Shown here piece after piece: positions 5,604 through 35,714 of a DNA stretch of 64,000 bases. The DNA comes from Aurantiochytrium sp. KH105 (taxonomy: Eukaryota > Sar > Bigyra > Thraustochytrida > Thraustochytriidae): contig BGKB01000042.1 of assembly GCA_003116975.1 (NCBI GenBank), positions 269,139 through 333,138 of the forward strand. The letters are read 5' to 3'. The number at the start of each line of letters is the position of its first letter. The stretch's first letter is position 1. Both the position numbers and the translations under genes were made by a program. A model generated the notes under the pieces. It searched no databases. It saw only the letters and a program-made list of their open reading frames with translations, and was not told the DNA's origin.

Positions 5604-8600
5604 ATGGCGCCCGCGCAGTATCTGCGCGCTAGCGCAGTGCTCCTCGCGGTGCTCTTCGTAAACGCCCAGGACAATGACACGTGCACCGGGCCAGCAATGT
5701 GCTCGCCCACGCTCCAGCAATTTGATATTCTGACGGAGAACCCGGAATGCTCATGCACTGTGAGCCCGGCGGATGCCGACGAGCCTCTGACTCTCGAGGC
5801 ATGCTGCGTGACAGACGAGACCGCCTCGTCCGACTCTTGCCGCGAGATCCAGCTGGTTGCCTCCCAGTACAGCCGTGAGGCGACCGTCGACACCGTCGCC
5901 GTGGACGCCACGCTCTCCATCCCGGTAACCTTTTCGACCACCGATGCCGCGAGCAGCTCATGCACGCGCACCTGCTCCATGTACGGTGACCCCGAGGGCA
6001 TTTCCTTTTGCGGTGATATCCGTGAATTCATTCTCTGCGACGGCCGCATCGACGATGTTGACAGTGATGATGTATGCCAACAGAGTAAGAGCGTTTGCGA
6101 GAGCCGCACCGATTACTACGGCAACCAATGCGTCTACTTGCCCGACCAGGAGGGCTCGACGTGGAGCGACTTTGACACTGATGGCTCCCCTTGCCAGATG
6201 GATCCCTCGGCCGAAGCCCCTGTGCAGGTCATGTACAGCCGCGCGCCTTTGAGCGGCTCGGGCGACTCGTACGCCGTTTCTGCCACCATCGGAGAGCGCG
6301 GCATCATGACCTCGATCACGATCGAGTACAATGGCGTCTCCTCGACGCTCTCGTCGGACGACTGCATTGCCAACCCTGGCGAGACGAGCGCGTGGTCGAA
6401 CGTGGACAACATTGCCGACTACGGCACGGCCCAGGTGAACGGAGGTGGCGCTCAGGTCGTGTGGGACTTTTCCATTGCCGATATGGATCTCCACCTTGTC
6501 TGCCAGCAGATGAGCGAGACCCGTACCCGCTGGGACGTCGACTCGCTCAGTGTGAGCACGTCCGCCGCCGAGGCCGCTTCGACGCTTACGGAGACCGGCT
6601 TTTGCGTGACTTCCGAGTTCAACACGGGCGAGGCTACGCAGACGGAGCTCTTTGAGACTGGCTTCCACTCGTACTGCCTCGAGCGCGCAACTCCGAACCT
6701 TTTGGTGTGCCGCACCCTTTCCAAGGAGTGCACGCGTGACGTCTACGAGGCAACCGTGGACGAGTTTTGTGAGAGCGCCAAGGGACAAATGGGCATCAGC
6801 GTGAGCAAGTGCAAGAAGCAGATCAAGAAACAGATCAAGCACGAGGTTAAGAACAGAAGCTCGAAGGATATCTGGGCCAAGCTTTACTGCCACGTTGTGG
6901 AGAACGGAAGCAAATCGGGAATCAAGTCGTGCCTGAAGAAGATTGATGACTTTGGCTTTGTCGAGGTGTACTCGGAGACCAGCTCGATGCTGACAACCTC
7001 TAGCTCGTCGTGCGATTTGAGCGCTTCCCTTGCGGTGGTCACGGACGAGGAGGACGAGTGCTTTGATGGCATGCACGTCGAGGTCGTGTACGATGGCACC
7101 CGCACGCGTGTCGCGTCGGTGCCTGCGTCCCGTTTGGTGTGCGAGGAGCCCCTCGTGCTCACGGGTGAGGACTACCCGACTCTTTTCGTTGAGGACAGCG
7201 ACATCTACCTCGTACAGTGCGGACTCACAGAGTCTTGCGCCGCGCAGCGTGGCTTCCGTGACGTGCCTGCGATTTCGATTGGCAGCGAGTCGTCTTCGTC
7301 GTCTTACGTGACCCTTTCTCTGGGCGAGTCGTCGAGCACCTCGACGTCCGACAGCGCGCCATCGATCTGCGAAAGTGCCGAGTCTGACACTGTGGAGAGC
7401 TGCCCATACTGCTGTGAGCTGCAGGACACCCCGGATTCGTCGATTTGCCTTGATGTCACGGTCTCGACCTCGCCTTACTGTGACGCGAGCAACCCGCCCA
7501 CGGATGTTGACTGCTCGGATGTGGTCGCCGAGGACTCGGACGTGTACGTCGACATTACCCTCATTACCACGCCGGCGGAGACGACGTGCTGCCACACTTG
7601 CACGGCCTGGGGTGACCCGAAACTGTACGCTTTTGATGGATGGGATGAGACGCCGGCCGAGTGGATCGAGTGCGATGGCCGCAACCCGAACTCGAACTGC
7701 AACTTTCAGGAGTCCGTGTGCGACAAGCAGGTGGATCACTTGGGCAACGCGTGCGTGTGGAACGAGACTGTGAGCGAGTATCTTGAGAACGACCGTTCGG
7801 CTGTTGGATTTTACGGAAGCCCGTGCCAGCCCGACTGGGAGGCTGCCGCAGAAAACGGATGGCGCTCGAACATCACCATGTACGAGACGGATTCTTGGAT
7901 GCTGCGCGTCTTCCTTGGCGAGCGCAGTGTGCTGACGACTCTGGAGTTCGAGCTCGCCTCGGGCGGCTACCACGAGTTTGATCCCGCAATGTGCTTTGGA
8001 GATGATCTTTCGGATGCCTGGACGAGCTACGGCGACGCTAGCTCAACGCCTGCTGGTGATGGCATTGAGTACGAGTGTGGCGATATCGACACGAACGGTC
8101 TTGAGCGCCCTTGCGCGATGACAAACTCGGCGACCAGCACTTTTGTCCAGATTCGCTGCATTCGCGTTGAGATGGACGATGTCTACCAGGGCTACCGCAT
8201 TAACATTGTGGGTGTGTCGGAGTTCTCCCAGAGCGGCGAGTACGCTTCTGTGGGCGGTTTCTGCGTGGATGACTCGCTGGAGGGCCCGATCGGTGAGTCG
8301 ACTGACAATGTCGACGCTGGTGACGAGTGCGGCCTTGACATGAACGATCTCGGCACGCAGCTGAGCCTGGGCCGTCTGTGCAAGGACATTTACCACCCGA
8401 CGTGCACGTCGAATGAGGCTGACGAGGCGATCCGGCGCTGGTGCAAGTACCAGGCCGTGCTTCCGCTGGAGGACAAGCTTTCGTGCGCGGAGGACATCCT
8501 CGGCACAAGCGACGATGACGCAAAGGAGGAGGCTTGGCGCGACTACTTTTGCCAGCAGTTCCCCGGTGAGGTGAGGAAGTGCAAGAAGGGCTACCGTGCC

Positions 8601-8948
8601 TATTTGGACACGACGCCAACGGCGACTATGTGCTTTTCGTCCGTGGACGAGGTTGCTGCCTTTGGCCACGATCCCTGCATGGTTGGTACCTCGGTGACTG
8701 CCGCTTCTGGCGATGAGATTCTCTTTATCCCGGACCACATCCCGCCTTGCGACAACGTCCTGCGTGTCCCGGCGTCGAACTCCTCGTACGCTGCTCTCTT
8801 TACCTCGACGGTGGAGTTCAACAAGTGCGGTGTGCAGACTGCCGAGTGCCCTCTGTACACGGCTCTGCCCGAGGCTTTCTGCCGCACCGTCGACCCGTTC
8901 TCGGTGCAGCTCACCTACTCGGCGGGCAACCTTTGCGGCGCTGCCTAA
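5604..8948 (+). CDS. Secreted Cys-rich double-GDP-module protein, array member 1 of 5
   Basis: Predicted secreted protein of 1,114 residues, function unknown. Residues 1-21 (MAPAQYLRASAVLLAVLFVNA) look like a signal peptide, and 5604 is the first ATG in a frame open from about 5397. No C-terminal anchor is seen. Two related halves: half A has YGDPEG (G128), CDGRIDD, DYYGNQCVYLPD, GSPCQMD and GERGIMT; half B repeats these as WGDPK (G670), CDGRNP, DHLGNACVW, GSPCQPDW and GERSVLT. A Ser/Thr-rich hinge at about residues 558-585 joins them. Many paired cysteines and N-glycosylation sequons suggest an extracellular, disulphide-bonded fold. The GDP motif after a Cys-x-x-Cys resembles the VWD-domain GDPH signature; that link is inference. 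It resembles member 5 more than members 2-4. A hairpin follows the stop at 8964-8986. Confidence 0.9.
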   Translation: MAPAQYLRASAVLLAVLFVNAQDNDTCTGPAMCSPTLQQFDILTENPECSCTVSPADADEPLTLEACCVTDETASSDSCREIQLVASQYSREATVDTVAVDATLSIPVTFSTTDAASSSCTRTCSMYGDPEGISFCGDIREFILCDGRIDDVDSDDVCQQSKSVCESRTDYYGNQCVYLPDQEGSTWSDFDTDGSPCQMDPSAEAPVQVMYSRAPLSGSGDSYAVSATIGERGIMTSITIEYNGVSSTLSSDDCIANPGETSAWSNVDNIADYGTAQVNGGGAQVVWDFSIADMDLHLVCQQMSETRTRWDVDSLSVSTSAAEAASTLTETGFCVTSEFNTGEATQTELFETGFHSYCLERATPNLLVCRTLSKECTRDVYEATVDEFCESAKGQMGISVSKCKKQIKKQIKHEVKNRSSKDIWAKLYCHVVENGSKSGIKSCLKKIDDFGFVEVYSETSSMLTTSSSSCDLSASLAVVTDEEDECFDGMHVEVVYDGTRTRVASVPASRLVCEEPLVLTGEDYPTLFVEDSDIYLVQCGLTESCAAQRGFRDVPAISIGSESSSSSYVTLSLGESSSTSTSDSAPSICESAESDTVESCPYCCELQDTPDSSICLDVTVSTSPYCDASNPPTDVDCSDVVAEDSDVYVDITLITTPAETTCCHTCTAWGDPKLYAFDGWDETPAEWIECDGRNPNSNCNFQESVCDKQVDHLGNACVWNETVSEYLENDRSAVGFYGSPCQPDWEAAAENGWRSNITMYETDSWMLRVFLGERSVLTTLEFELASGGYHEFDPAMCFGDDLSDAWTSYGDASSTPAGDGIEYECGDIDTNGLERPCAMTNSATSTFVQIRCIRVEMDDVYQGYRINIVGVSEFSQSGEYASVGGFCVDDSLEGPIGESTDNVDAGDECGLDMNDLGTQLSLGRLCKDIYHPTCTSNEADEAIRRWCKYQAVLPLEDKLSCAEDILGTSDDDAKEEAWRDYFCQQFPGEVRKCKKGYRAYLDTTPTATMCFSSVDEVAAFGHDPCMVGTSVTAASGDEILFIPDHIPPCDNVLRVPASNSSYAALFTSTVEFNKCGVQTAECPLYTALPEAFCRTVDPFSVQLTYSAGNLCGAA

Positions 8949-8963
8949 ATTTATCATTCGTAT

Positions 8964-8986
8964 GGATGACCCGGCACGGGTCATCC
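8964..8986. other. Perfect 10-bp inverted repeat (3' UTR hairpin)
   Basis: Arms GGATGACCCG (8964-8973) and CGGGTCATCC (8977-8986) are exact reverse complements around the loop GCA. The hairpin begins 15 nt after the stop codon of array member 1, so the transcript could fold into a stable stem-loop. I did not see an equivalent after the other four members. A role in mRNA processing or stability is possible but unproven. Confidence 0.7.
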
Positions 8987-9680
8987 TGAGGTAGACTATT
9001 CTGGTACTTTTAACCCTTCTAAAAAAGGCATTTTGTCATCAACATGACCGTCTCCTTTTCTCTCCCTTTCTTTGTTTTCGGAAGAATGCTTGACGTTTGT
9101 CGGTAGCCAAGTGCAGTCTTGCAAAGAGACTCCAGAGGGAACGTAAGTCTCTTTAAATTTTAGCGCATTGGGCATGAATTTGCGGAGCATCCTTTTGACC
9201 CAACTCTTTATGCTTCAAAGCTCTCGAACGTTTCCCGAGCCATGTTTCAAGCGGCGGGCCCGGCAGCGATAGCCTCTCGCTTTGTATTCGCGCGGCGCAG
9301 CGCATTTTGAAGTATGTTGTCCACGATGCCACTGGCTGACAGTGGAGGAGGAGGACTTCGCAAATAAGGAAAAGGACCAGTGTGTTGGGCCGCGCTGTAT
9401 ACTGTACACCGTCCTGACATCAGTCAGCACACTTGCAACAATAATTTCGCCTGTACGGCGGAGCGATAACGGAGCGACCATGCTAAAGCCACACCCTTTC
9501 GCCGCGCACGCAATTGACGCACGCACCGACGCGCCTGGTGCGTAGTCCCCGTCCCGCGTCCTGTCCTCCTCGGGTACTCCTTGGCACTTTTCAGCGTTAG
9601 GTTCTCTCTTCAAGTTCTCGCGAGCTCACGTAAGCTCCCGCTGTCGAAGCAAACCAGCAATCTGCAAGATACGAACATGA
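8987..9680. other. Intergenic region, no supported gene
   Basis: About 0.7 kb between the hairpin downstream of array member 1 and the TPR pseudogene. Mixed composition; the open frames present lack protein-like features. Nothing else recognised. Confidence 0.45.
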
Positions 9681-10435
9681 GACCGAGCGACCTATACGGA
9701 TTGCCGTCACACCCGGTGAGGAGGAGGGATTCGAGGAGCAGCATCTTGAGCATCCTTCCTAGATCGCGAAGGTCATGGCAGACAACAATGAGATGCGCAA
9801 CGCCAAGTGCCACAAAGCTGAGGATAAGAAGATGATTGATGATGCTGTCGGAAAAATCGACAGGAACTCTACAGGAACTCTACAATGCTGAACATGGTGG
9901 TGAACGACCGTGTGCGGGAGTGGCATCTGCAAATGGCGCGACAAGCAGTCGACAAAACACGACAGCGAGAGTATGAAGAGGGTCTAGCGGATATTCCTTG
10001 GGATGCGGGGTCTCTTTTCACGAGCCAGAGCATATTCTATGAGGCCCTGACGTACTACGAGGAAGTGCTGTCGATTCGTGGGGGAAATTTGGCGACTGAC
10101 ATACCTTAGTGGCTCAGACGCTCAACAACATCACCGTAGTGTATGACTCGCAAGGCCGCTACAAGGAGGCCTTGGGGTCACTACGAGGAAGCGCTGTCGA
10201 TTAAGAAGGAAAGAAGGAAAGTCTTGGCGACTGGCATTCCGATGTGGCTCAAACGCTCAACAACATCGCCTCAATGTACTATTCAAAAGGCCGCTACGAG
10301 GAGGCCCTGGCGGTTTACGAGGAAGCGCTGTCGATTCGCGAGGAAAAGCTTGGCGACCGGCATCCCGATGTGGCGACCACGCTGAAAAACATGCGAAACA
10401 CGAGAGAGAGGATGCGAGCGAGCACGAAGAGATGA
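9681..10435 (+). pseudogene. Decayed TPR-repeat gene (kinesin-light-chain/NPHP3-style TPRs)
   Basis: Remnant of a gene with ~42-residue TPR units of the kinesin-light-chain type. The best unit (10241-10370) reads as VAQTLNNIASMYYSKGRYEE followed by ALAVYEEALSIREEKLGDRH. Two preceding units (about 10030-10108 and 10109-10240) are clearly the same repeat at DNA level but broken. Relative to the intact unit there is a 1-bp loss near 10081 and TGA where the Trp/Arg codon before the conserved His should be. There is also a 1-bp gain near 10180, and an extra gaaggaaa copy near 10205-10225. Upstream (9777-9890), AKVMADNNEMRNAKCHKAED and a helical stretch to 10000 probably belong to the same ancestral protein, with further stops. 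The last unit ends at TGA 10433-10435. The left boundary is uncertain. It sits between array members 1 and 2. Confidence 0.7.
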
Positions 10436-11652: not shown

Positions 11653-11735
11653 TGAGGGAGAGAAGCAAAGAAAGAAAGAAACAAAGCAAGGAAGAAAGGA
11701 AGGAAGGAAGAAAGGGAGGAAGAAAGGGAAACCGG
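11653..11735 (+). repeat. Purine-rich GAAA/GAAG tract
   Basis: Imperfect run of gaaa, gaag and ggaa tetranucleotides with almost no pyrimidines. Low-complexity DNA of the kind found repeatedly between genes in this window. Confidence 0.8.
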
Positions 11736-13836: not shown

Positions 13837-13841
13837 GACGT

Positions 13842-13888: not shown

Positions 13889-13907
13889 TGCATAGCGGCG
13901 AGCCAGC

Positions 13908-16900
13908 ATGAAGGGGGCCAAGACGGCGCTCGTGGCGATCCTCGCCAGCGTGATCTGCGCGCAAAAGGGAGCGGGACAAGACCCGTATGAATGCAACACG
14001 AGCACGACGCCGACGTGCGGAGGCGACAATGTCATTGATGCGCTCCTCGAGGCCGAGGCCAGCGTGACCTCGCGGGACGACTGCGAAATCTGCGAAACTT
14101 CTGATAATGTCCTGACCAGCCTCGCCGCGTGCTGCGTAGCCGGCGCGGGCGTCAGCGTCACCTCGGAGTGCCGCGAGATCTCCGTCCCGGTCTCCGAGGA
14201 AACTGGTGAAACATTTCTGACGGTCAGTGAGGTCGCCCTCGATGCATCCGTCACCATCCCCATCAACATCTCATACTCGGAGACCGCCGAAAACGCCTGC
14301 GCGCGTACCTGCAGACTCTATGGCGACCCCGAGGGCCTCTCCTTCTGCAACGTTCGCAAGGAGTTCATCCTCTGCGACGGCCGCATCGATGACGCAGACA
14401 GCCCAGACGTGTGCACGCAGACCGAAGAGACCTGCCTCAGTCGCAAAGACTACTACGGCAACGCCTGCGTCTGGCTCCCAGACGACACGAATGACTTTAC
14501 CTGGGCCTCGGGTTCCCCGTGCCAGATGGACCCCACGCTCCCACCTCCGGTACAGCTCGTGTACAGCCGCGCGCCGTCAAACTCGGAGAACGAAGGTACC
14601 TCCTACGCAGTCTACGCCACCGTTGGCGAGCGTGGCATCATCACGAACATCACCTTCGAGTACGACGGTGCCAGCTCAACCATCAACGCAGTTGACTGCA
14701 TCGATTCGGACGGGTCCACCGACGGCTGGACCAACCCGGACGCCATTCTTCCCTACCTCAACGTCACCACCGTGCTCCCTGGCAAGCAAGTCATCATGGA
14801 CGTACTGCTGGAAGACATGGGCGTGCACCTCATCTGCCAGGCGATGGCTCTTGGCACGGCTCGTCTTGACATTGACACTCTCTACGTCACAACCCCGCGC
14901 GAGACCGTCTTGGATGAAGGCTTCACCGAAGATGGCTTTTGCGTCACTTCCGAGATGGACACCGGCGAGGCGACCCAGGCCAACCTGACCGAGAACTTTC
15001 ACTCGTACTGCCTCGCCAAGTTCTCGCAGAACCTGCTGGTGTGTCGCGCGCTGTCCAAGGAGTGCACTCGACTCTCGTTCATGCCGACGGTGACGGAGTT
15101 CTGCACCAACGTGGCCGAGTCCAAGCTTGACATGAGCGTCTCGAAGTGCGAACGAAAGATTAAGGCACAGATCGAGCGCGAAATTAATAGCAAGTCCTCG
15201 GACGATGTCTGGGTTGTCTTTTACTGCCGCGCGATTGCGGATGGCAGCGCTGCGGTGGAACAGGAATGCATTGACAACGTGTACAACTTTGGCTTCCTCG
15301 AAGTCTTTGATGAGACGAGTGGTGTCCTGTACAACCCCACAGCCTCCGTCTCGTGCGACGAGGATGCCAGCTTTGAGGTAAGCACTGACTCGTGCTTCTC
15401 TGGCGTTCACGTCGTTACTGTGGACAGCAACGGAGATCGTACCACCATCGCATCGATTCCTGCCTCGTACCTTGCGTGCGGTGACGACATTGTGCTCACT
15501 GGCGCAGACTACCCTGAGATCTTCGTCTCCGGCACTGACATTGTGCTGCAGCAGTGTGGTCTCACCGACTATTGCAGCGCGCAAAACGGTTTCCGGGAGG
15601 TCGCAGCCATGGAGGTCATGTCTGAGATCTTTATCACCACCGGCTCTGCCAGTGAGATCGATTCTTTGCCGGCTGTCTGCGAGGTCGACTCCTCTGACAT
15701 TGTGAGCAGCTGCCCCACGCAGTGCTGCCTGCTCGAGAACGACGGCGCCCCCATTTGCCTGAATGTGTCCGTCGCCACCACGCCGTTCTGTACTGACGGT
15801 AGTGACGGCAACGCTCCGGATGGTACCTCGTGCTCGGATCTGATTGGCTCCGACGCCTACGTCGACATCTCTCTCGAGCTCTTGGAGGACCAGGAAGATC
15901 TCAACTGGGTGAGCACTTGCTGCCAAACGTGTGCTGCCTGGGGCGACCCCAAGCTCGTCGCCTTTGGCGGATGGTCTGATTCCCCCGCAGAGTGGCTCAT
16001 GTGTGACGGCCGCAATCCCAAGAAGAGCTGCAACTTTCAGCAGCAAACGTGCACTTCGCAAATCGATCATCTCGGCAACGACTGTGTCTGGAACGACACC
16101 ATCAAGGATCTCATGGACGGCGACCGCAGCATGGTCAGCTTTTACGGAAGCCCGTGCCAGCCCGACTGGGCTGCCGCCGAGGCTGCTGACTGGCTCCCCA
16201 ACGTCACCTTCTTCACAAACGAGGACTTTGGCGTGCGCGTCTTTACCGGCGAACGTAGCGTCTTGACTGCCATGGAGTTCAACATTAGCGACACCGGCTA
16301 TCATCGCTTCGATCCGTCAGGCTGCTTTGATGAAGACTCCTCGTCGGCCGCTTCCGCCTGGTCCAGCTACGGTGACGCCGGTAGCTCACCAGAAGACGAC
16401 GGCTTCTCTACCGTGTGCGGCGACATTGACGCCGGAGGACTCGAGCGGTCCTGCGCTGTGACGCACACTGGCTCGAGCGCGTTCATGCAATTCCGCTGCA
16501 TTCGGGCGTCACACGATGACGAGTACGAGGGCTACCGACTGAACGTGCAGGGCATCTCCGAGTTCCTCCCGTACTCTGCGACGGGCGGCTTTTGCGTGAG
16601 CGATGATCTCGAGGAGTACATGGGCGAGTCCTCGGAGAACGAAGCCGCCGCAAGCCACTGCGGTCTGGAGAACGACGACCTCGGCACGCGGCTTACGATG
16701 GGCCAGACGTGCAAGAACATCTACCACCCAACCTGCACTGCGGATGAGGCCGAGGAGGCTATTCGCAAGTGGTGCCGCTACTCGGCAGTGCTTCCGCTCG
16801 ACGACGTTCTCTCGTGTGCATCTGACATCATTGACGGAGGCAGCGCGGACGGCATGGCCTCTCGCTGGGTCTCGAGGTTTTGTGCGCAGTTCCCGGGCGA

Positions 16901-17279
16901 GGTGAGCAAGTGCAAGAAGGACTACACTGCGTACCTGGACACGACCCCGACGGCGACCATGTGCTTTTCTTCGCTGGACGAGATGGTTGACTTCGGTCAT
17001 GATCCGTGCATGGTCGGCACCAAGGTTCTCGACTCGTCGAGCGGCGAGGAGATTCTGTTCATTCCGGACCACATTCCTCCTTGTGACAACGTGGTTCGCG
17101 TGCCTGCTACGAGCGAATATGCTGCATTCTTCACGTCGACGGTGGAGTTTGTCAAGTGCGGCGTTTCGCCTTCAGAGTGTCCTCTGTACTCGGCCTTGCC
17201 GTCGACGTTTTGCGACCCGGTGCGCTCATACTCGGTGCAGCTCTCGTACAGCACCTCGAGCTTTTGCGGAGCCAACTGA
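13908..17279 (+). CDS. Secreted Cys-rich double-GDP-module protein, array member 2 of 5
   Basis: 1,123 residues, predicted secreted, function unknown. Signal peptide about residues 1-23 (MKGAKTALVAILASVICAQKG), then QDPYEC. Half A: CARTCRLYGDPEG (G139), CDGRIDD, DYYGNACVWLPD, GSPCQMDP, GERGIIT, GFCVTSEMDTGEATQ, then a helical Cys-containing stretch (ALSKECTRLSF to QIEREIN). It closes with CFSGVHVV...IASIPASYLACGD...QQCGL. Half B mirrors the same order: CCQTCAAWGDPK (G679), CDGRNP, DHLGNDCVW, GSPCQPDW, GERSVLT, GGFCVSDD, CKNIYHPTCT, CFSSLDEM...FIPDHIPPCD...VKCGV. Repeat period is about 540 residues. Many NxS/T sequons. DNA from 15828 to 16792 shows no difference from member 3 by eye; elsewhere identity alternates with diverged islands. 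Its C-terminal block (KVLDSSSGEE) matches member 4, not 3. Confidence 0.92.
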   Translation: MKGAKTALVAILASVICAQKGAGQDPYECNTSTTPTCGGDNVIDALLEAEASVTSRDDCEICETSDNVLTSLAACCVAGAGVSVTSECREISVPVSEETGETFLTVSEVALDASVTIPINISYSETAENACARTCRLYGDPEGLSFCNVRKEFILCDGRIDDADSPDVCTQTEETCLSRKDYYGNACVWLPDDTNDFTWASGSPCQMDPTLPPPVQLVYSRAPSNSENEGTSYAVYATVGERGIITNITFEYDGASSTINAVDCIDSDGSTDGWTNPDAILPYLNVTTVLPGKQVIMDVLLEDMGVHLICQAMALGTARLDIDTLYVTTPRETVLDEGFTEDGFCVTSEMDTGEATQANLTENFHSYCLAKFSQNLLVCRALSKECTRLSFMPTVTEFCTNVAESKLDMSVSKCERKIKAQIEREINSKSSDDVWVVFYCRAIADGSAAVEQECIDNVYNFGFLEVFDETSGVLYNPTASVSCDEDASFEVSTDSCFSGVHVVTVDSNGDRTTIASIPASYLACGDDIVLTGADYPEIFVSGTDIVLQQCGLTDYCSAQNGFREVAAMEVMSEIFITTGSASEIDSLPAVCEVDSSDIVSSCPTQCCLLENDGAPICLNVSVATTPFCTDGSDGNAPDGTSCSDLIGSDAYVDISLELLEDQEDLNWVSTCCQTCAAWGDPKLVAFGGWSDSPAEWLMCDGRNPKKSCNFQQQTCTSQIDHLGNDCVWNDTIKDLMDGDRSMVSFYGSPCQPDWAAAEAADWLPNVTFFTNEDFGVRVFTGERSVLTAMEFNISDTGYHRFDPSGCFDEDSSSAASAWSSYGDAGSSPEDDGFSTVCGDIDAGGLERSCAVTHTGSSAFMQFRCIRASHDDEYEGYRLNVQGISEFLPYSATGGFCVSDDLEEYMGESSENEAAASHCGLENDDLGTRLTMGQTCKNIYHPTCTADEAEEAIRKWCRYSAVLPLDDVLSCASDIIDGGSADGMASRWVSRFCAQFPGEVSKCKKDYTAYLDTTPTATMCFSSLDEMVDFGHDPCMVGTKVLDSSSGEEILFIPDHIPPCDNVVRVPATSEYAAFFTSTVEFVKCGVSPSECPLYSALPSTFCDPVRSYSVQLSYSTSSFCGAN

Positions 17280-19558: not shown

Positions 19559-22500
19559 ATGAAGACGGTCAAGTCGGCACTCGCGGCGATCGTCGCCGGC
19601 GTGATCTGCGCGCAAAAGGGAGCCGGGCAGGACCCGTATGAATGCAACGAGAGCGAGCTGCCGCTGTGCGGAGACGACACCGACACTGACAATGTGCTCC
19701 TTAGGGCTGTGGCCAGCGTTGACGCACCTGAGGACTGCGATATCTGTAACGAGTTTGCTCGGACAAGCCTCGACCCGTGCTGCGTGCCTGTTGCGGGCAT
19801 CACCGTCACCTCAGAGTGCCGCGAGATTTTTGCGCCATTGTCAAGAGCAATAACTTCGAATGACTATCAGACCACTGATCAAGTCCCGACCGACGCAAAT
19901 TTAGTGATCCCCGTCAACATTTCTTACTCGGTGACCGCCGAAAACGCCTGCGCGCGTACCTGCAGACTCTATGGCGACCCCGAGGGCCTCTCCTTTTGCA
20001 ACGTTCGCAAGGAGTTCATCCTCTGCGACGGCCGCATCGATGACGCAGACAGCCCAGACGTGTGCACGCAGACCGAAGAGACCTGCCTCAGTCGCAAAGA
20101 CTACTACGGCAACGCCTGCGTCTGGCTCCCGGACAACACGAATAACTTTACTTGGACCTCGGGATCCCCGTGCCAGATGGACCCCACGCTCCCAGCCCCA
20201 GTACAGCTCGTGTACAGCCGCGAACCGTTCAACGCGAATAATGTTGATAACTTGTCCTACGCGGTCTTTGCAACAATCGGCGAGCGCGGTATCATCACTG
20301 ATGTCACCTTTGAGTTCGGCGGTGTCAACGCAACCATCAACGCAGTTGACTGCATCAACTCGGACGGTTCCACCGACGGCTGGACCAACCCGGACGCCAT
20401 TCTTCCCTACCTCAACGTCACCACCGTGCTCCCTGGCAAGCAAGTCATCATGGACGTACTGCGGGAAGACATGGGCGTGCACCTCATCTGTCAGGCCATG
20501 GAAGGTCACGCGGCTCGCCTCGACATCGATACACTTTATATCACAACCCCGCGCTCAGAACTGTCAAGCTTCACAGAAGATGGCTTTTGCGTCACTTCCG
20601 AGATGGACACCGGCGAGGCGACCCAGGCCAATTTGACCGAGAACTTTCACTCGTACTGCCTCGCCAAGTTCTCGCAGAACCTGCTGGTGTGTCGCGCGCT
20701 GTCCAAGGAGTGCACACGACGCTCGTTCATGCCGACGGTGACGGAATTCTGCACCAACGTGGCCGAGTCCAAGCTTGACATGAGCGTCTCGAAGTGCGAA
20801 CGAAAGATCAAGGCACAGATCGAGCGCGAAATTAATAGCAAGTCCTCGGACGATGTCTGGGTTGTCTTTTACTGCCGCGCGATCGCGGATGGCAGCTCTG
20901 CGGTGGAACAGGAATGCATTGACAACGTGTACAACTTTGGCTTCCTCGAGGTCTTTGATGAGACGAGTGGTGTTCTGTACAACCCCACAGCCTCCGTCTC
21001 GTGCGACGAGGATGCCAGCTTTGAGGTAAGCACTGACTCGTGCTTCTCTGGCGTTCACGTCGTTACTGTGGACAGCAACGGAGATCGTACCACCATCGCA
21101 TCGATTCCTGCCTCGTACCTTGCGTGCGGCGACAACGTTGTCTTTACTGGCGCAGACTACCCTGAGATCTTCGTCTCGGGCACTGACATTGTGCTGCAGC
21201 AGTGTGGTCTCACCGACTATTGCAGCGCACAAAACGGTTTCCGGCAGGTTGCAGCCATGGAGGTTTTGTCTCCAATTGAGATAGACTTTGGCTCCCGCAT
21301 TCGAGCTGTACAGGAACCGGTTGTGTGCGAGGTCGACTCCTCTGACATTGTGAGCAGCTGCCCCACGCAGTGCTGCCTGCTCAATAACGACGGCGCTCCC
21401 ATTTGCCTGGATGTGTCCGTCGCCACCACGCCGTTCTGTACTGACGGTAGTGACGGCAACGCTCCGGATGGTACTTCGTGCTCGGATCTGATTGGCTCCG
21501 ACGCCTACGTCGACATCTCTCTCGAGCTCTTGGAGGACCAGGAAGATCTCAACTGGGTGAGCACTTGCTGCCAAACGTGTGCTGCCTGGGGCGACCCCAA
21601 GCTCGTCGCCTTTGGCGGATGGTCTGATTCCCCCGCAGAGTGGCTCATGTGTGACGGCCGCAATCCCAAGAAGAGCTGCAACTTTCAGCAGCAAACGTGC
21701 ACTTCGCAAATCGATCATCTCGGCAACGACTGTGTCTGGAACGACACCATCAAGGATCTCATGGACGGCGACCGCAGCATGGTCAGCTTTTACGGAAGCC
21801 CGTGCCAGCCCGACTGGGCTGCCGCCGAGGCTGCTGACTGGCTCCCCAACGTCACCTTCTTCACAAACGAGGACTTTGGCGTGCGCGTCTTTACCGGCGA
21901 ACGTAGCGTCTTGACTGCCATGGAGTTCAACATTAGCGACACCGGCTATCATCGCTTCGATCCGTCAGGCTGCTTTGATGAAGACTCCTCGTCGGCCGCT
22001 TCCGCCTGGTCCAGCTACGGTGACGCCGGTAGCTCACCAGAAGACGACGGCTTCTCTACCGTGTGCGGCGACATTGACGCCGGAGGACTCGAGCGGTCCT
22101 GCGCTGTGACGCACACTGGCTCGAGCGCGTTCATGCAATTCCGCTGCATTCGGGCGTCACACGATGACGAGTACGAGGGCTACCGACTGAACGTGCAGGG
22201 CATCTCCGAGTTCCTCCCGTACTCTGCGACGGGCGGCTTTTGCGTGAGCGATGATCTCGAGGAGTACATGGGCGAGTCCTCGGAGAACGAAGCCGCCGCA
22301 AGCCACTGCGGTCTGGAGAACGACGACCTCGGCACGCGGCTTACGATGGGCCAGACGTGCAAGAACATCTACCACCCAACCTGCACTGCGGATGAGGCCG
22401 AGGAGGCTATTCGCAAGTGGTGCCGCTACTCGGCAGTGCTACTGCTCGACGACGTTCTCTCGTGTGCATCTGACATCATTGACGGAGGCAGCGCGGACGG

Positions 22501-22921
22501 CATGGCCTCTCGCTGGGTCTCGAGGTTTTGTGCGCAGTTCCCGGGCGAGGTGAGCAAGTGCAAGAAGGACTACACTGCGTACCTGGACACGACCCCGACG
22601 GCGACCATGTGCTTTTCTTCGCTGGACGAGATGGTTGACTTCGGTCATGACCCGTGCATGGTCGGCGTCAGCGTGAGAGACACGGCGAGCGGCGAGGAGA
22701 TTCTGTTCATTCCGGACCACATTCCTCCTTGTGACAACGTGGTTCGCGTGCCTGCTACGAGCGAATATGCTGCGTTTTTCACGTCGACGGTGGAGTTTGT
22801 CAAGTGCGGCGTTTCGTCTTCAGAGTGTCCTCTGTACTCGGTCTTGCCGTCGACGTTTTGCGACCCGGTGCGCTCATACTCGGTGCAGCTCTCGTACAAT
22901 GCACCAAGCTTTTGCGATTAA
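19559..22921 (+). CDS. Secreted Cys-rich double-GDP-module protein, array member 3 of 5
   Basis: 1,120 residues, predicted secreted, function unknown. Signal peptide MKTVKSALAAIVAGVICAQKG, then QDPYEC as in member 2. GDP motifs at G139 (YGDPEG) and about G678 (WGDPK), with the two-half architecture of the family. Most of the protein is identical to member 2. Divergence is confined to islands: residues about 30-115, about 195-262, about 305-340 (EGHAARLD and SELSSFTED), the hinge about 573-592 (VLSPIEIDFGSRIRAVQEPV), about 1038-1045 (SVRDTASGEE) and the C-terminus (NAPSFCD). Islands carry silent as well as coding changes, so they look like non-converted patches, not just selected loops. The gene is 2.28 kb downstream of member 2 on the same strand. 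Confidence 0.92.
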   Translation: MKTVKSALAAIVAGVICAQKGAGQDPYECNESELPLCGDDTDTDNVLLRAVASVDAPEDCDICNEFARTSLDPCCVPVAGITVTSECREIFAPLSRAITSNDYQTTDQVPTDANLVIPVNISYSVTAENACARTCRLYGDPEGLSFCNVRKEFILCDGRIDDADSPDVCTQTEETCLSRKDYYGNACVWLPDNTNNFTWTSGSPCQMDPTLPAPVQLVYSREPFNANNVDNLSYAVFATIGERGIITDVTFEFGGVNATINAVDCINSDGSTDGWTNPDAILPYLNVTTVLPGKQVIMDVLREDMGVHLICQAMEGHAARLDIDTLYITTPRSELSSFTEDGFCVTSEMDTGEATQANLTENFHSYCLAKFSQNLLVCRALSKECTRRSFMPTVTEFCTNVAESKLDMSVSKCERKIKAQIEREINSKSSDDVWVVFYCRAIADGSSAVEQECIDNVYNFGFLEVFDETSGVLYNPTASVSCDEDASFEVSTDSCFSGVHVVTVDSNGDRTTIASIPASYLACGDNVVFTGADYPEIFVSGTDIVLQQCGLTDYCSAQNGFRQVAAMEVLSPIEIDFGSRIRAVQEPVVCEVDSSDIVSSCPTQCCLLNNDGAPICLDVSVATTPFCTDGSDGNAPDGTSCSDLIGSDAYVDISLELLEDQEDLNWVSTCCQTCAAWGDPKLVAFGGWSDSPAEWLMCDGRNPKKSCNFQQQTCTSQIDHLGNDCVWNDTIKDLMDGDRSMVSFYGSPCQPDWAAAEAADWLPNVTFFTNEDFGVRVFTGERSVLTAMEFNISDTGYHRFDPSGCFDEDSSSAASAWSSYGDAGSSPEDDGFSTVCGDIDAGGLERSCAVTHTGSSAFMQFRCIRASHDDEYEGYRLNVQGISEFLPYSATGGFCVSDDLEEYMGESSENEAAASHCGLENDDLGTRLTMGQTCKNIYHPTCTADEAEEAIRKWCRYSAVLLLDDVLSCASDIIDGGSADGMASRWVSRFCAQFPGEVSKCKKDYTAYLDTTPTATMCFSSLDEMVDFGHDPCMVGVSVRDTASGEEILFIPDHIPPCDNVVRVPATSEYAAFFTSTVEFVKCGVSSSECPLYSVLPSTFCDPVRSYSVQLSYNAPSFCD

Positions 22922-24878: not shown

Positions 24879-27800
24879 ATGAGAGGCCTCATGGCAGTCA
24901 TGGTGATGGCCACCTGCGCCCAGCAAGTATTTACGCAAAGCGACCCGTACGAGTGCGCGACGGAAACGACAACAACGTGTGCCGCGCTCGACGCGTTGAA
25001 GGTCGACGAGTTCGGCAACTACGAGGCCACACAGGCATCTGTGAGTAATGCGCGTGAGGACTGCGAACTATGCACAGATCCGACGTTAACCACTCTAAAT
25101 GCTTGCTGCGCGGTCGGCACTGATGCCAGCAGCGCGGCAGAGTGCCGTGAGATTCAAGTCCCTGTAACGGACGGTAAAAGCGATGCGAGTGTCGTATTTA
25201 CGACGGTCGAAAGTGTGTACAGCGACGCACAATTGACGATTCCGATTGTTGTCTCCGAGGCAGAGACGGCCGAGAACGCCTGCGCCCGCACCTGCAGGCT
25301 TTACGGAGACCCCGAAGGCATCTCTTTTTGCGGCGTTCGAAAAGAGTTCATCCTCTGCGACGGGCGCATCGATGACTCGAGCAACAGTGATGTATGCACA
25401 CAAGACGCAGAGACTTGCAGAGGTAGAAAGGACTATTACGGAAACCAATGCGTCTGGCTTCCGGATGAAGGTGATAATCTCGAGTGGACGACAGGCTCGA
25501 AATGCCAAATGGACCCCACGCTTCCGCCACCGGTTCAGCTCGTATACCGCCGCGCACCGTCAAACTCTGAAAACCAAGGCATTGGATATGCCGTCTACGC
25601 CACCGTTGGCGAGCGCGGCATCATTACCCATGTCACCTTCGAGTACAATGGTCAGAACTCGACGATTGACGCTGCCAAGTGCATTACAACGGAGGGATCT
25701 ACCGATGCCTGGACCAACCCAACTGAGATTGAACCATACCTGACTGTCAGCTCAATTGTCTCGGACAAAAAAGCTGTCATGGATATCGCGATCGAAGACA
25801 TGGGTGTGCATCTCGTCTGTCACGCCATGGATAGCGGCAGAGGTCGTCTCGATATTGACACACTTTACGTGACCTCGACTCGCGCATCGGTGCTTGAAAG
25901 CAGCGAGATCGAGGAAGGTTTCTGCGTCACCTCCGAGATGGACACCGGCAAAGCGACACAAGCCAACCTGACTGAGAACTTCCACTCATTCTGTCTCGAG
26001 AAATTCGCCCAGAATTTGCTCGTATGCCGCACGCTCTCCAAGGAGTGCTCGAGACTTTCGTACATGCCCACAGTGACCGAGTTCTGCACTAACGTGGCTA
26101 GATCGAAACTCGGCATGAGCGTTTCAAGATGCGAAAATCAACTCCAGAGTCAACTCGAGCGTGAGGTCAATAGCCAATCCTCGAGGAACATTTGGATTGA
26201 GTTTTACTGCAAGGCCGTATCGAATGGAGACAGCCAGCAAGAAGAGGAGTGCCTGAACAACGTGGACAACTTTGGCTTTGCGCAGGTCTACGATGAGACC
26301 AGTGATGGATTTTACGACCAGACCGCATCGGTCTCGTGCGACCTCGACGCCAGTTTTAAGGTCAACACCGACCCATGCTTTTCGGGCGTGAATGTTGTTC
26401 TCGTCGGAAGAAATGGAGACGAGACCACTATTGCATCGATTCCTCCCTCGTACCTTGCATGCGGCGAGGACGTCATCCTCACAGGTGCGGACTACCCGGA
26501 AATCTTCATCACTGGCACGGATATCTCGCTTCAGCAGTGCGGCCTGTCGGCATACTGCAGCGCACAGAACGGCTTTCGTCAGGTTGCAGCCGTCGAAGTC
26601 ACGTCGACAATCATGCTCTCCATGGGCGAGGAAGAAATTCAAACCCCGGCGGTTTGTGAGGTCGAGTCCTCTGACCTCGTCAGCAGTTGTCCCACGCAGT
26701 GCTGCCTTCAAGAAAACGGAGGCGCTCCCACTTGCTTGAACGTATCCGTGGCCAGCACACCGTTTTGCACTAATGACAACGCACCGGATGGCAGCTCGTG
26801 CTCGGATCTTATTGGCTCCGAGGCTTACGTCGACATTAGTCTCGAATTGCTCGATGACCCAGAAGATCCTGAATGGGTCTCGAGTTGCTGCCGGACGTGC
26901 GCTGCATGGGGCGATCCCAAGCTCATTCCCTTTGATGGTTGGTCCGATGCTCCTGCAGAATGGCTCATGTGCGATGGTCGCAAAGCGAACAGCTGCAAAT
27001 TCAAGGAAGCGACGTGCGTCAACCAGGACGATCACCTTGGCAACCCGTGCGTCTGGAACAAGACCATTGACGAGCTTCTCAAGAAGGATCGCAGCCTGGT
27101 TGGCTTCTATGGAAGCCCATGCCAGCCTGACTGGGAGAAGGCCGAAGATGCCGAATGGCTTCCCTATGTCACGCTCTTCTCGGACGGGGAAGATTTCGCC
27201 GTGAACGTCACTACGGGCGAGCGCAGTGTCTTGACGACTCTTGAATTCTACGTTTCCAAGACTAGCTATCATCGCTTCGATCCGGAACTGTGCTTCAACG
27301 ACAACCCCACGGGTGGTTCTGCCTGGTCCAGCCATGAGGGCGCCAGCAGCTCCCCGGCGGCTGATGGCCTTACTGCTTCATGCGGCCCTATCGACACGAA
27401 TGGTCTCGAGCGACCCTGTGCTGTGACGCATGACGCTACGGGTGTCTTTACGCAGTTCCGCTGCATCCGCGCCTCATTGGATGGCGTCTACGCTGGCCAC
27501 CGCCTCAACATCCAAGGTATCTCAGAGTTTCTTCCGTACACTGGCACCGAAGGCTTTTGCGTTGATGGGTCAATGGAAAAGTACATGGGCGATTCCACGG
27601 TGAACGAGAAAGCTGCCGACAAATGCGGTCTGGACAATGATGATATTTCGGACGACCGCCTCGCCTTGGGCCAGACGTGCAAGAACATTTACCATGAAAC
27701 ATGCACTGCTGACGAGGCCGAGGAGGCAATTCGCAAGTGGTGCCGGTACTCGGCGGTCCTCCCGCTCCAAGATGCTCTCTCGTGTGCGACCGACATCATT

Positions 27801-28250
27801 GACGACAGCAGCCTGACAGGCATGGCAAAGCGCTGGACGCATATCTTTTGCGAACAATTTCCGGGTGAGGTGAGCAGGTGCAAGAGGGACTACACCGCAT
27901 ATCTGGACAAGATGCCGACGGCAACGATGTGTTTTTCGTCGCTGGACGAGCTGGTGGACTTTGGCCATGACCCGTGCATGGTCGGCACCAAGGTGCTCGA
28001 CTCTTCAAGCGGCGAGGAGATTCTCTTTATCCCGGACCACATTCCTCCTTGTGACAACGTTCTCCGCGTGCCTGCAACGAGTGAGTACGCGGCATTCTTC
28101 ACATCAACCGTTGAGTTTGTCAAGTGCGGCGTCTCGCCTTCCGAGTGCCCATTGTACTCGGCTCTGCCGTCGACGTTTTGCGATCCGGTGCGCTCATACT
28201 CGGTGCAGCTCTCTTACACTACACCAAGCTTTTGCGGCGACGACAACTAA
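24879..28250 (+). CDS. Secreted Cys-rich double-GDP-module protein, array member 4 of 5
   Basis: 1,123 residues, predicted secreted, function unknown. Short signal peptide MRGLMAVMVMATCAQQVFTQ, then SDPYEC. GDP motifs at G143 (YGDPEG) and G678 (WGDPK), with the same paired blocks as the other members (CDGRIDD/CDGRKA, DYYGNQCVW/DHLGNPCVW, GSKCQMDP/GSPCQPDW, GERGIIT/GERSVLT). It groups with members 2 and 3 but is clearly more diverged. It shares SNSEN and VYATVGERGII with member 2, where member 3 differs. Its C-terminal segment from KVLDSSSGEE onward nearly matches member 2. These patches suggest exchange between members 2 and 4. The helical part of half A differs most (QLQSQLEREVNSQSSRNIW). 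Confidence 0.92.
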   Translation: MRGLMAVMVMATCAQQVFTQSDPYECATETTTTCAALDALKVDEFGNYEATQASVSNAREDCELCTDPTLTTLNACCAVGTDASSAAECREIQVPVTDGKSDASVVFTTVESVYSDAQLTIPIVVSEAETAENACARTCRLYGDPEGISFCGVRKEFILCDGRIDDSSNSDVCTQDAETCRGRKDYYGNQCVWLPDEGDNLEWTTGSKCQMDPTLPPPVQLVYRRAPSNSENQGIGYAVYATVGERGIITHVTFEYNGQNSTIDAAKCITTEGSTDAWTNPTEIEPYLTVSSIVSDKKAVMDIAIEDMGVHLVCHAMDSGRGRLDIDTLYVTSTRASVLESSEIEEGFCVTSEMDTGKATQANLTENFHSFCLEKFAQNLLVCRTLSKECSRLSYMPTVTEFCTNVARSKLGMSVSRCENQLQSQLEREVNSQSSRNIWIEFYCKAVSNGDSQQEEECLNNVDNFGFAQVYDETSDGFYDQTASVSCDLDASFKVNTDPCFSGVNVVLVGRNGDETTIASIPPSYLACGEDVILTGADYPEIFITGTDISLQQCGLSAYCSAQNGFRQVAAVEVTSTIMLSMGEEEIQTPAVCEVESSDLVSSCPTQCCLQENGGAPTCLNVSVASTPFCTNDNAPDGSSCSDLIGSEAYVDISLELLDDPEDPEWVSSCCRTCAAWGDPKLIPFDGWSDAPAEWLMCDGRKANSCKFKEATCVNQDDHLGNPCVWNKTIDELLKKDRSLVGFYGSPCQPDWEKAEDAEWLPYVTLFSDGEDFAVNVTTGERSVLTTLEFYVSKTSYHRFDPELCFNDNPTGGSAWSSHEGASSSPAADGLTASCGPIDTNGLERPCAVTHDATGVFTQFRCIRASLDGVYAGHRLNIQGISEFLPYTGTEGFCVDGSMEKYMGDSTVNEKAADKCGLDNDDISDDRLALGQTCKNIYHETCTADEAEEAIRKWCRYSAVLPLQDALSCATDIIDDSSLTGMAKRWTHIFCEQFPGEVSRCKRDYTAYLDKMPTATMCFSSLDELVDFGHDPCMVGTKVLDSSSGEEILFIPDHIPPCDNVLRVPATSEYAAFFTSTVEFVKCGVSPSECPLYSALPSTFCDPVRSYSVQLSYTTPSFCGDDN

Positions 28251-32375: not shown

Positions 32376-35300
32376 ATGCGCGCTCTTGCCGCGTCCCTTA
32401 CGGTCGCGACGGCGATGACGTTGCTGGACGCGCTCGCCAATGCCCAAGAATGTGCCACGAACACCACGAGCATGTGCAGCGATCTCTCTGGAGCCTTGCT
32501 CGTTTCGAATCTCGAGGTCGAGGTCGCCTCGAGGACAGACTGCACCATCTGCACAACCGAATCTCCCTTCGTTACTAGCTTCGATGCATGCTGCTCCTCC
32601 GGTGTCTCGCCAACGTCCTCGTGTCGCGAGATCCTGCTGGATTTGCCAGCGTCCTCCGCAGACGTTCGCCCAAGCTCTGTCGCGAGCGTCGATGCTGGCG
32701 CCACCCTCACAATCCCCGTCACAATGTCCCAGATCGTCACCGCAGAGCACTCCTGCTCGCGCACCTGCATGCTCTACGGAGACCCCGAGGGCGTCTCCTT
32801 TTGCGGTGAATACTCCGAATTCGTCCTCTGCGACGGCCGCATCGACGACGGGTCCGAGGACGCCTGCACGCAGAGCAAGGAAGTCTGCGAAAGTCGTCTC
32901 GACTATTATGGAAATGCATGCGTCTATCTGCCTGATGTACCCAACTCCACTTGGGTTGACTTTGACGTCTCGGGGTCGCCCTGCCAGATGGATCTCTCAG
33001 TCAACCCAGCGCCTGTTCAGCTCATGTACAGTCGCCGCCCTCTCCAGGCCAATAATGGCCCCACGCCCTTTGCCGTCTACGCGGAAATCGGTGAGCGCGG
33101 TATTATTCCCACCATCATCATCGAGTACGACGGCGTCAACGCCTCCCTCTCGGCCAACGACTGCATTGCCAGCAACGGCAGCTGGGACGCATGGGTCAAC
33201 GGCGACGCCATCAGGGAATTCGGCAACTACACTGTTCAGGAAGCAGAGGCGCAAGTCGTGTACACCTTTCTCATCGACGACACGATGGGCCTGCGGCTCC
33301 TGTGCCAGCGCATGGGCCCTCAGCGCGCCCGCTGGGACGTTGACAACCTTTACGTCCTGGACACCGCAGAGCAGGCCGCCACCACCTCCAAAGAAGATGG
33401 CTACTGCGTCACCTCGGAGATGAGCATGGGTAAGGCCACGCAAAGCAGCACCGAAAACTTTCACTCCTTGTGCATGGCCACCCTTTCGCCCAACATGCTT
33501 GTCTGCCGTACTCTCTCCAAGGAGTGTACCTCTGACACGTACATGACCACCGTCAAGGCTTGGTGCGATGGTCTTAACCCGGAGCTCCGGCCCAACCGTT
33601 GCATTCAGCGCATCAAGAAGCAGATCAAGAGGGAGCTGGCGGGTCAGTCTTCGTCCAGTGTCTGGTCCGATCTCTTTTGCCAAGTCCTCGGAGACCATGG
33701 CAAGACACTCACGCAAGAGTGCAAGACGAAGGTGGAAAACTTTGGCTTTCCCGAAGTCTTTGCAGAGAGCGGATATACGCTCAGCCAGGTCACGGCTGCC
33801 ACCGCATGTGACATGGACGCCTCTCTCGCCGTCAGCTCAGAAGAGTGCTTTGAGGGCCTTCACGTCCAGATCGAGACCGAAGACGGCTCGCGCGAGACCA
33901 TCGCCTCCGTCCCCGTCTCGCGCCTCGTATGCGATGAGCCTCTCGTCCTGACCGGCGCTGACTACCCCGAAGCCTTCGTCTACACTGTCTATCTCGTGCA
34001 GTGCGGCCTTTCCGAAATATGCAACCTTGCCCGCGGCCACCGTCCCGTGGCCGCCGTCGAGGTCGCTGCCAATGATTTTATCACCATGGAGTACTCCCAG
34101 GAAGCAACGGCGGCCTCTGGCCCAACGGTCTGCGCCGATGATGTCTCGGATATCGTCTCGAGCTGCCCGACGCAGTGCTGCCGCCAGGAAAATGACGGCG
34201 CGCCCATTTGCCTCAACGTCACCGTCTCTTCGACCGCCTTTTGCGATGCGGACACCGCTCCGGACGGCGTTGACTGCGCCGACATTGTGAACTCTTCTGC
34301 TTACGTCGACATCACCATCGAGCCGCAAGAGGATTCCGAGGACGAAGACTGGCTCGGGTCTTGCTGCCGCACCTGCGCCGGGTGGGGAGACCCCATTCTT
34401 CTCCCCTTTAACTCTTCGGAAAAGGTCAAGTGGATCCAGTGCGATGGCCGCAAGGAAAATTGCGCCTTTGGCCAAAAGGTGTGCGAAAACCAGGTTGATC
34501 ACCTGGGCAACGCCTGCGTGTGGAACCAGACGGTTGATGACCTCGTGGTGCTCAACAAAAGTCCCACTGTCGCTTTCTTTGGCAGCCCGTGCCAGGTCAA
34601 TTGGACAGCCGCAGCGGATGCCGACTGGCTTCCCAACGTGACCATGTTTGAAAACGAAGACTTTAGCATGCGCCTCTTTACCGGCGAGCGCAGTGTACTC
34701 ACGGGTCTCGAACTGGAGCTCACTTCAGGAGGCTACCACCACTTTGACCCGGCGGGTTGCTTTCATGACGATTCGATCACGGCCGCGGACGCCTGGACAA
34801 GCTACGAGGGGGCACCTTCGACACCTGCGAAAAGCGGCTTTTCCGTCACGTGCGGCGATGTTGACATGAATGGCCTCGAGCGTCCCTGCGCGGTTACTCA
34901 CCAAGATTCAAGCGTCTTCATCCAGTTCCGCTGTATTCGCGCCAGTCTCGACGGCGACTACGACGGTATGCGCATCAACGTCCAGGGTATTTCCGAGTAT
35001 CTCCCCTACTCGTCCTCGGGCGGCTTTTGCTACGACGGAAACCTCGACAATGCGCGCGGCGAGTCAAGCATCAATGAAGCCGGCGAAGCCTGTGGTCTTG
35101 ACGAAGACGAGGCGGGTACTCACATCTCGCTCAACCGCATTTGCAAGGATATCTTCCACCCAACCTGCACAGTCAACGAGATTGAGGCCGCTGTGGAGAG
35201 CTGGTGCAAGTATTCGGCCATTCTCAAGCTTAAGGACAAGCTAACCTGCGCGAGCGATATTATCAACGGAACAAAGCATTCTCTCGAGGTGCGTTGGCGC

Positions 35301-35714
35301 AATTACTTTTGCATGCAGTTCCCCAATGGCAAGTACTCCAAGTGCCAAAAGGACTACACCAAGTTTCTCGACGTCACCCCCACGCGCGACCTTTGCTTTT
35401 CATCCATCGACGAACTTGAGGCGTTTGGACGGGATCCATGCATGGCAGGCGTCTCTGTCATGAATGTTGAGACCGACCAAGAGATCCTCTTTCTCCCGGA
35501 GCACATTCCTCCCTGCGACAACGTTCTCCGCGTCCCGGCTTCCGAAAAGTATGCCGACCTTTTCACCAGCAAAATTGAGTTCGTCAAATGCGGCGTCCAG
35601 CCTGAGCAATGCCCGTACCATTCTGCGCTCCCGGGCGTCTTTTGCGATCCCATTCAATCGTACTCTGTGCAACTCACCTACAGTGCTGGAGACCTGTGCC
35701 CGGACGCAAGCTAA
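32376..35714 (+). CDS. Secreted Cys-rich double-GDP-module protein, array member 5 of 5
   Basis: 1,112 residues, predicted secreted, function unknown. 32376 is the first ATG in a frame open upstream and gives a signal peptide (MRALAASLTVATAMTLLDAL, then ANAQEC). GDP motifs at G135 (YGDPEG) and G671; the second reads WGDPI rather than the usual GDPK. All family blocks are present: CDGRIDD/CDGRKE, DYYGNACVYLPD/DHLGNACVW, GSPCQMD/GSPCQVNW and GERGIIP/GERSVLT. It shares with member 1 the CVYLPD form, QSK-VCESR, the F-D-x-x-GSPCQMD spacing and the lysine-rich IKKQIK helix. It therefore probably represents the same older subtype. Last member of the array; the next gene is unrelated and 2.8 kb away. 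Confidence 0.92.
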   Translation: MRALAASLTVATAMTLLDALANAQECATNTTSMCSDLSGALLVSNLEVEVASRTDCTICTTESPFVTSFDACCSSGVSPTSSCREILLDLPASSADVRPSSVASVDAGATLTIPVTMSQIVTAEHSCSRTCMLYGDPEGVSFCGEYSEFVLCDGRIDDGSEDACTQSKEVCESRLDYYGNACVYLPDVPNSTWVDFDVSGSPCQMDLSVNPAPVQLMYSRRPLQANNGPTPFAVYAEIGERGIIPTIIIEYDGVNASLSANDCIASNGSWDAWVNGDAIREFGNYTVQEAEAQVVYTFLIDDTMGLRLLCQRMGPQRARWDVDNLYVLDTAEQAATTSKEDGYCVTSEMSMGKATQSSTENFHSLCMATLSPNMLVCRTLSKECTSDTYMTTVKAWCDGLNPELRPNRCIQRIKKQIKRELAGQSSSSVWSDLFCQVLGDHGKTLTQECKTKVENFGFPEVFAESGYTLSQVTAATACDMDASLAVSSEECFEGLHVQIETEDGSRETIASVPVSRLVCDEPLVLTGADYPEAFVYTVYLVQCGLSEICNLARGHRPVAAVEVAANDFITMEYSQEATAASGPTVCADDVSDIVSSCPTQCCRQENDGAPICLNVTVSSTAFCDADTAPDGVDCADIVNSSAYVDITIEPQEDSEDEDWLGSCCRTCAGWGDPILLPFNSSEKVKWIQCDGRKENCAFGQKVCENQVDHLGNACVWNQTVDDLVVLNKSPTVAFFGSPCQVNWTAAADADWLPNVTMFENEDFSMRLFTGERSVLTGLELELTSGGYHHFDPAGCFHDDSITAADAWTSYEGAPSTPAKSGFSVTCGDVDMNGLERPCAVTHQDSSVFIQFRCIRASLDGDYDGMRINVQGISEYLPYSSSGGFCYDGNLDNARGESSINEAGEACGLDEDEAGTHISLNRICKDIFHPTCTVNEIEAAVESWCKYSAILKLKDKLTCASDIINGTKHSLEVRWRNYFCMQFPNGKYSKCQKDYTKFLDVTPTRDLCFSSIDELEAFGRDPCMAGVSVMNVETDQEILFLPEHIPPCDNVLRVPASEKYADLFTSKIEFVKCGVQPEQCPYHSALPGVFCDPIQSYSVQLTYSAGDLCPDAS

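Follow-up and report, generated by a model that had tools for sequence, protein, structure and literature searches.

A tandem array of secreted, cysteine-rich two-unit proteins in Aurantiochytrium sp. KH105: candidate structural or adhesive proteins of the cell surface

What do five neighbouring, almost equally long genes for cysteine-rich, apparently secreted proteins contribute to a thraustochytrid cell? The question is raised by a stretch of 64,000 nucleotides from Aurantiochytrium sp. KH105 (contig position C42:269139-333138, in an assembly that comprises 76 Mb in 367 contigs), here called the window, in which these genes, A to E, form a tandem array. We suggest, with a probability of roughly 0.5, that their products are secreted and serve the cell surface as structural or adhesive proteins, either in the wall and scale layer or in the matrix of the ectoplasmic net. 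The signal-like starts, the acidity, the apparently paired disulfide scaffold, the tandem copies, the purifying selection and the membrane-anchored sister proteins of this family all fit such a role.

The array, which spans positions 5604-35714, consists of five intact single-exon open reading frames on the + strand, 1112-1123 codons long, with neither stops nor introns. For genes A and E the mechanically called frames begin further upstream, and the methionine preceding the signal-like stretch was chosen as the start. The five proteins align end to end with pairwise identities of 48-89% (E = 0.0). Each begins with a signal-peptide-like N-terminus, judged by hydropathy and by eye rather than by SignalP, and none has a convincing later membrane span, the highest mean hydropathy over 19 residues being 1.68 in B (near residue 68) and 1.07-1.22 in the other four. 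Cysteine makes up 5.7-5.8% of the residues, and all five proteins are strongly acidic (net charge -90 to -121). A preliminary description of this DNA, made from the sequence alone, had reported a five-gene tandem array of near-equal length whose products have signal-like starts, dense cysteines and no membrane anchor, and in all these respects it holds. A profile of the repeating unit described below found no further family fragments in the window (next best match at E 0.87). No 9-mer is common to at least four of the five 400-bp stretches upstream of the genes, and no homology was found among the spacers of the array. The A-B spacer contains an internal self-repeat, which is the relic listed in Table 1. 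Two short stretches of the D-E spacer, 63 and 36 bases long, find matches near 61.7 kb.

Each array protein is composed of two related half-units, as had also been proposed: the N-terminal and C-terminal halves match each other with E-values down to 1.5e-12. In a set of 42 half-units from 22 genes (20 N-halves, 20 C-halves and two single units), 22 cysteine columns and the tripeptide GDP are kept in every member (42/42 for both), and in an alignment of 35 half-units the motifs CDxR, GSxC and GER, one tryptophan and other positions are invariant as well. After the signal-like stretch, the number of cysteines is even in all 32 rows counted (22 genes and ten alleles), with 64 in the window genes, 68 in every other two-unit gene retrieved, and 42 and 56 in the single-unit genes. 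These rows are related to each other and do not represent 32 independent events; cleavage sites were set by a simple rule, two rows in which no start was found both gave 64 on recount, and the start of C53:7651 is uncertain. Cysteine columns 166/172, 362/374 and 482/490 are present or absent as pairs, other variable columns pairing less plainly, and such joint gain and loss is expected if each pair forms one disulfide. The unit is apparently a locked disulfide scaffold in which all cysteines are paired, and it is a clear example of a two-unit architecture in which predicted disulfides are gained and lost in pairs.

The family extends beyond the window. Searched with the protein of gene B, the 76-Mb genome yielded 68 matches, all of them free of internal stops. 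The assembly apparently holds two haplotypes: the array is mirrored gene by gene on C146, where all five reading frames are intact, and, from the match positions, C33/C47, C11/C18, C53/C179 and C53+C110/C224 resemble haplotype pairs too. On one haplotype there are at least 22 family genes at six loci, also called clusters here (Table 1), a lower bound that counts the best-scoring candidates and leaves out C18 and C224; the positions of the C224 matches suggest that C53 and C110 carry a single array. Two sister genes have one unit followed by a linker rich in proline and threonine (PT-rich). One of them, C87:244529, has a VWA domain at its end (E 2.6e-8), and the other, C53:119353, has a hydrophobic span near its C-terminus, followed by a short tail, as recognized by eye. 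A long PT-rich linker separates the halves of C11:222319, and a short one stands at the same place in C11:217724. PT-rich linkers, VWA domains and membrane anchors are typical of surface and matrix proteins. No relatives from outside this genome were found in collections of virus contigs and of bacterial and archaeal contigs, a result with little bearing on protists.

The unit has no above-cut-off match to a described family, either when single proteins were compared with Pfam-A, NCBIfam and PDB sequences or when the 35 half-units were compared with Pfam and PDB. This agrees with the earlier statement that the proteins could not be matched to a known family, the VWA domain of the sister gene outside the window being the exception. 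ToxB_N, DUF2237, Flavi_NS1, Collar, mis18 and similar entries gave sub-threshold chance matches and were rejected. A partial search of the literature on labyrinthulomycete genomes and on thraustochytrid walls, scales and secretomes found no such cysteine-rich family named in titles or the opening parts of abstracts.

In a tree of the 42 half-units, the 20 C-halves stand on one side and the 20 N-halves, together with the two single units, on the other (98/94), and within each half every multi-gene locus groups together; the tree has an arbitrary root, and the program cautions that long branches meet. The topology points to one internal duplication first, followed by local growth of the arrays. 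Genes B and C share a long tract of identical sequence (Table 1). On the other haplotype the longest identical B/C tract is 396 bases, and the longest identical runs between alleles are 141 bases for B and 156 bases for C. Identity between neighbours that so far exceeds the allelic runs argues for recent gene conversion, and the array shows such conversion between neighbouring genes on two haplotypes. The haplotypes differ by 0.07-0.105 synonymous changes per site. In eight of nine allele pairs the non-synonymous differences are 0.005-0.015; gene C reaches 0.038, a value that it owes to a block at about residues 41-118. For genes A, B, D and E the allelic ratio of non-synonymous to synonymous differences (pN/pS) is 0.07-0.11, values which indicate that the alleles are under purifying selection; selection on the copies had been claimed from the open frames and the order of motifs. 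Going beyond that first account, the family is seen to occupy at least six loci, its two-copy genes appear to derive from one old duplication, and gene conversion is homogenizing genes B and C.

Table 1. Coordinates of the array genes, of the tracts and blocks within them, of the family loci on one haplotype, and of neighbouring features (window positions unless a contig is named)
Feature	Position	Strand	Size	Remarks
Gene A	5604-8948	+	1114 aa	signal-like start; N half-unit ~5670-7340, C half-unit ~7341-8945
Gene B	13908-17279	+	1123 aa	N half ~13977-15671, C half ~15672-17276
Gene C	19559-22921	+	1120 aa	N half ~19628-21319, C half ~21320-22918
Gene D	24879-28250	+	1123 aa	N half ~24939-26639, C half ~26640-28247
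Gene E	32376-35714	+	1112 aa	N half ~32445-34115, C half ~34116-35711
Gene B conversion tract	15828-16792	+	965 bases	identical to gene C 21476-22440
Gene C conversion tract	21476-22440	+	965 bases	identical to gene B tract
Gene C divergent block	19679-19912	+	~residues 41-118	vs C146:48824-49057; 54% amino acid identity over residues 26-120, flanks nearly identical
Locus I	this window		5 genes	
Locus II	C33		4 genes	
Locus III	C53 (5) + C110 (3)		8 genes	
Locus IV	C11		3 genes	
Locus V	C87		1 gene	
Locus VI	C53:119353		1 gene	
Relic of unrelated gene	10041-10392			TPR-type repeats, between genes A and B
ZIP zinc transporter	374-1492			E 1.7e-40
Ion-transport channel protein	56848-58734			E 5.5e-41
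Cyclase/ATPase frame	38525-47422		2965 aa	guanylate/adenylate cyclase catalytic domain and AAA ATPase

How might proteins of this kind build a surface layer? Each would probably form a stiff rod or plate, strongly acidic and built of two related units of about 530-570 residues, and conserved disulfides would lock every unit, its cysteines apparently all being paired. The array members would be exported in bulk and would pack non-covalently into a covering or a net, by means of Ca2+-bridged acidic faces and the binding of polysaccharide, and the anchored and VWA-bearing sisters would connect this layer with the membrane or with further matrix molecules. The numerous, almost equal copies would give dosage as well as stage- or layer-specific versions. 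Thraustochytrid scales are described as part of a non-cellulosic wall, elements of which have been seen in the Golgi (PMC11642839), and the ectoplasmic net is presented as a means of attachment, with candidate proteins put forward for it in 2025 (PMC12221091). In Seminavis robusta, a diatom and thus a stramenopile, a tandem-enriched vWD family, many members of which carry GDPH domains, is reported to be tied to adhesion (PMC7335047). The matrix, scale or adhesion role put forward in the preliminary description is plausible in this light, with some support from the PT-rich linkers, the VWA domain and the membrane anchor of the sister proteins, and it stays conjectural. A more sweeping version appears doubtful to us, namely that the unit represents a novel kind of extracellular domain, about 550 residues long and held by as many as 11 invariant disulfides, that the at least 22 genes per haplotype encode a main protein of the scales and wall or of the ectoplasmic net, and that variable N-terminal faces in some of these genes would serve cell or substrate recognition as well.

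Several observations weigh against a structural or adhesive role. Scales are described as polysaccharide (PMC12221091). N-glycosylation sequons, earlier said to be many, are at chance level in four of the five array proteins (5, 9, 10 and 5 observed, compared with shuffled means of 5.8, 7.3, 8.1 and 7.7), and gene E alone exceeds chance (13 compared with a shuffled mean of 6.9, reached in 17 of 1000 shuffles). The even cysteine counts speak against cross-linking through free thiols, so that any polymer would need non-covalent packing or symmetric interchain pairs. The invariant polar residues (GDP, CDxR and GER) might just as well belong to an active or binding site, and the divergent allelic block of gene C fits recognition better than a pure building block. 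Finally, one feature of the DNA sits less well with a thraustochytrid: the G+C content tabled for four labyrinthulomycetes in PMC10101102 is 43-47%, below the 50-71% found per 2-kb stretch of the window.

The gene C block is the starting point for the alternative that these are recognition proteins, serving in mating, in self/non-self discrimination or in contacts with prey and bacteria, and exposing a variable N-terminal face on the conserved disulfide scaffold, with conversion and allelic blocks maintaining diversity. In this block the two alleles differ by synonymous and non-synonymous changes alike, set between near-identical flanks. A DNA search of the assembly found no close second copy that could be the donor of the C146 allele's block, the next-best matches, with 79-80% identity over 76-78 bases, lying in gene B and its allele; the block could be a long-lived polymorphism. 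In cluster II, gene I has an excess of allelic amino acid change at residues 1-80, signal peptide included, and the differences between B and C are concentrated in aligned codons 1-120, 181-240, 301-360 and 541-600, with hardly any elsewhere. However, seven of the nine allele pairs compared, all drawn from outside clusters III and IV, lack such a block and have a gene-wide pN of 0.005-0.010, and one sampled individual cannot reveal balancing selection, so we regard recognition as a rather unlikely role. Secreted enzymes, lectins or inhibitors for feeding, made of paired catalytic or binding units that disulfides stabilize outside the cell, would suit the osmotrophic life style of thraustochytrids, and the invariant D, R, E and W positions in the 35 aligned half-units are consistent with them. 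Yet the searches of Pfam and NCBIfam returned no catalytic or carbohydrate-binding family above cut-off, and no PDB sequence matched; this role seems improbable, and the least likely of those considered here.

A likeness of another kind lies in the GDPxxxxFDG region, where the units could be read as highly diverged VWD or diatom GDPH adhesins, each with a VWD-type domain, a cysteine-rich insert after the first hairpin and then a C8-like helical region. The VWD comparator was obtained by a pattern scan of bacterial and archaeal contigs (80 loci out of 116 stretches; 81 bacterial segments), and the three of its 81 segments that were scanned in Pfam were all VWD, at 2.6e-9 to 1.4e-12. When the unit is aligned to this profile with hhalign, the GDPxxxxFDG region scores 27.8 over 27 columns, which none of 100 column shuffles reaches (maximum 20.0). 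When the supposed insert is omitted, the alignment grows from 19 to 61-67 columns, and in a forced alignment the GFCvTGxiD of the unit falls near the VWD motif GLLGnxdGd. The match that carries the score, however, spans 19-27 columns, its probability being about 6%, and omission of the insert leaves the score unchanged (27.1 both ways). With the motif removed, hhalign does no better than shuffles or gives P 0.57, and columns 166-300 alone score 11.7, under the shuffle maximum of 15.0. The C8 likeness was judged by eye. Pfam matches to VWD (PF00094) are lacking from the five window proteins (E <= 10) and from five sister proteins and 35 of the 42 half-units (E <= 1); VWD sequences among PDB chains do not match the units, and a search of the whole genome gave no VWD match, yet the same search was silent in the controls too. 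Histidine follows GDP in 0 of 42 half-units, and the diatom GDPH signature is therefore absent. Membership in VWD was rejected beyond the motif, there being no Pfam match and no similarity over the whole domain, and descent from such adhesins is distinctly unlikely, although the unit may act in a similar way.

The preliminary description had placed a decayed pseudogene between the genes; a relic is indeed there (at about 10.0-10.4 kb), not as a member of the family, being made of what, by eye, are decayed, frame-broken TPR-type repeats with a kinesin-light-chain-like motif. The array lies between the genes for the ZIP zinc transporter and the ion-transport channel protein of Table 1. The window also contains the single long frame that combines a cyclase catalytic domain with an AAA ATPase, an architecture which we take to resemble that of soluble adenylyl cyclase.

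Elsewhere in the assembly, genes of the Pfa type were observed. In eukaryotes, polyunsaturated fatty acid (PUFA) synthase is reported mainly from thraustochytrids, and the table of the same source also has the dinoflagellate Alexandrium minutum (PMC9702510). Long open frames on C72/C155 hold PfaA-type KS-MAT-ACP matches, and those on C290/C61 hold KR/DH matches; the best score is 930 bits against a cut-off of 1010 bits, a shortfall that may come from the division of the frame between contigs, and the PfaA-type profile also matches in 11 of 14 control genomes. The gene seems to be split at the ACP region, its second part beginning near base 32 of C61, perhaps through an assembly break at tandem ACP repeats. 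Four PfaD-type matches exceed the cut-off, on C72/C155 and C17/C58 (over cut-off in one of 14 controls), and C72 carries a frame of 2081 amino acids with KS and PfaD-type matches on the strand opposite to the PfaA-type frame. The predicted Pfa-type genes fit a three-subunit PUFA synthase and make a thraustochytrid the likeliest source, short of proof.

Thraustochytrids are the group used for the production of docosahexaenoic acid. In the present organism, a secreted family of many genes, clearly marked by its cysteines, provides a concrete and testable set of candidates for scale and net proteins. Scales, like ectoplasmic nets, are presented as features found in Labyrinthulea only (PMC11642839).

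Compared with known systems, the unit shares with the VWD domain (PF00094) the GDPxxxxFDG entry motif, and differs from it in a length of about 550 amino acids, in its own pattern of 22 cysteines and in having no significant similarity past about 27 columns. VWD proteins are cysteine-rich, extracellular and built of several units, as the array proteins appear to be. With the extracellular proteins that carry VWA (PF00092) the link is through the sister gene on C87, which ends in this domain, none being present in the window genes. The adhesive GDPH proteins of the diatom Seminavis robusta are likewise described as secreted, expanded and provided with a GDP motif (PMC7335047, PMC8027222); their domain is named after the tetrapeptide Gly-Asp-Pro-His (PMC8027222), found in 0 of the 42 units, the comparison being confined to this motif. 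Closest in organism are the candidate ectoplasmic-net proteins of Aurantiochytrium limacinum, compared here by description only, among which one secreted adhesin-like candidate is reported and matched to micronemal protein 4 (PMC12221091).

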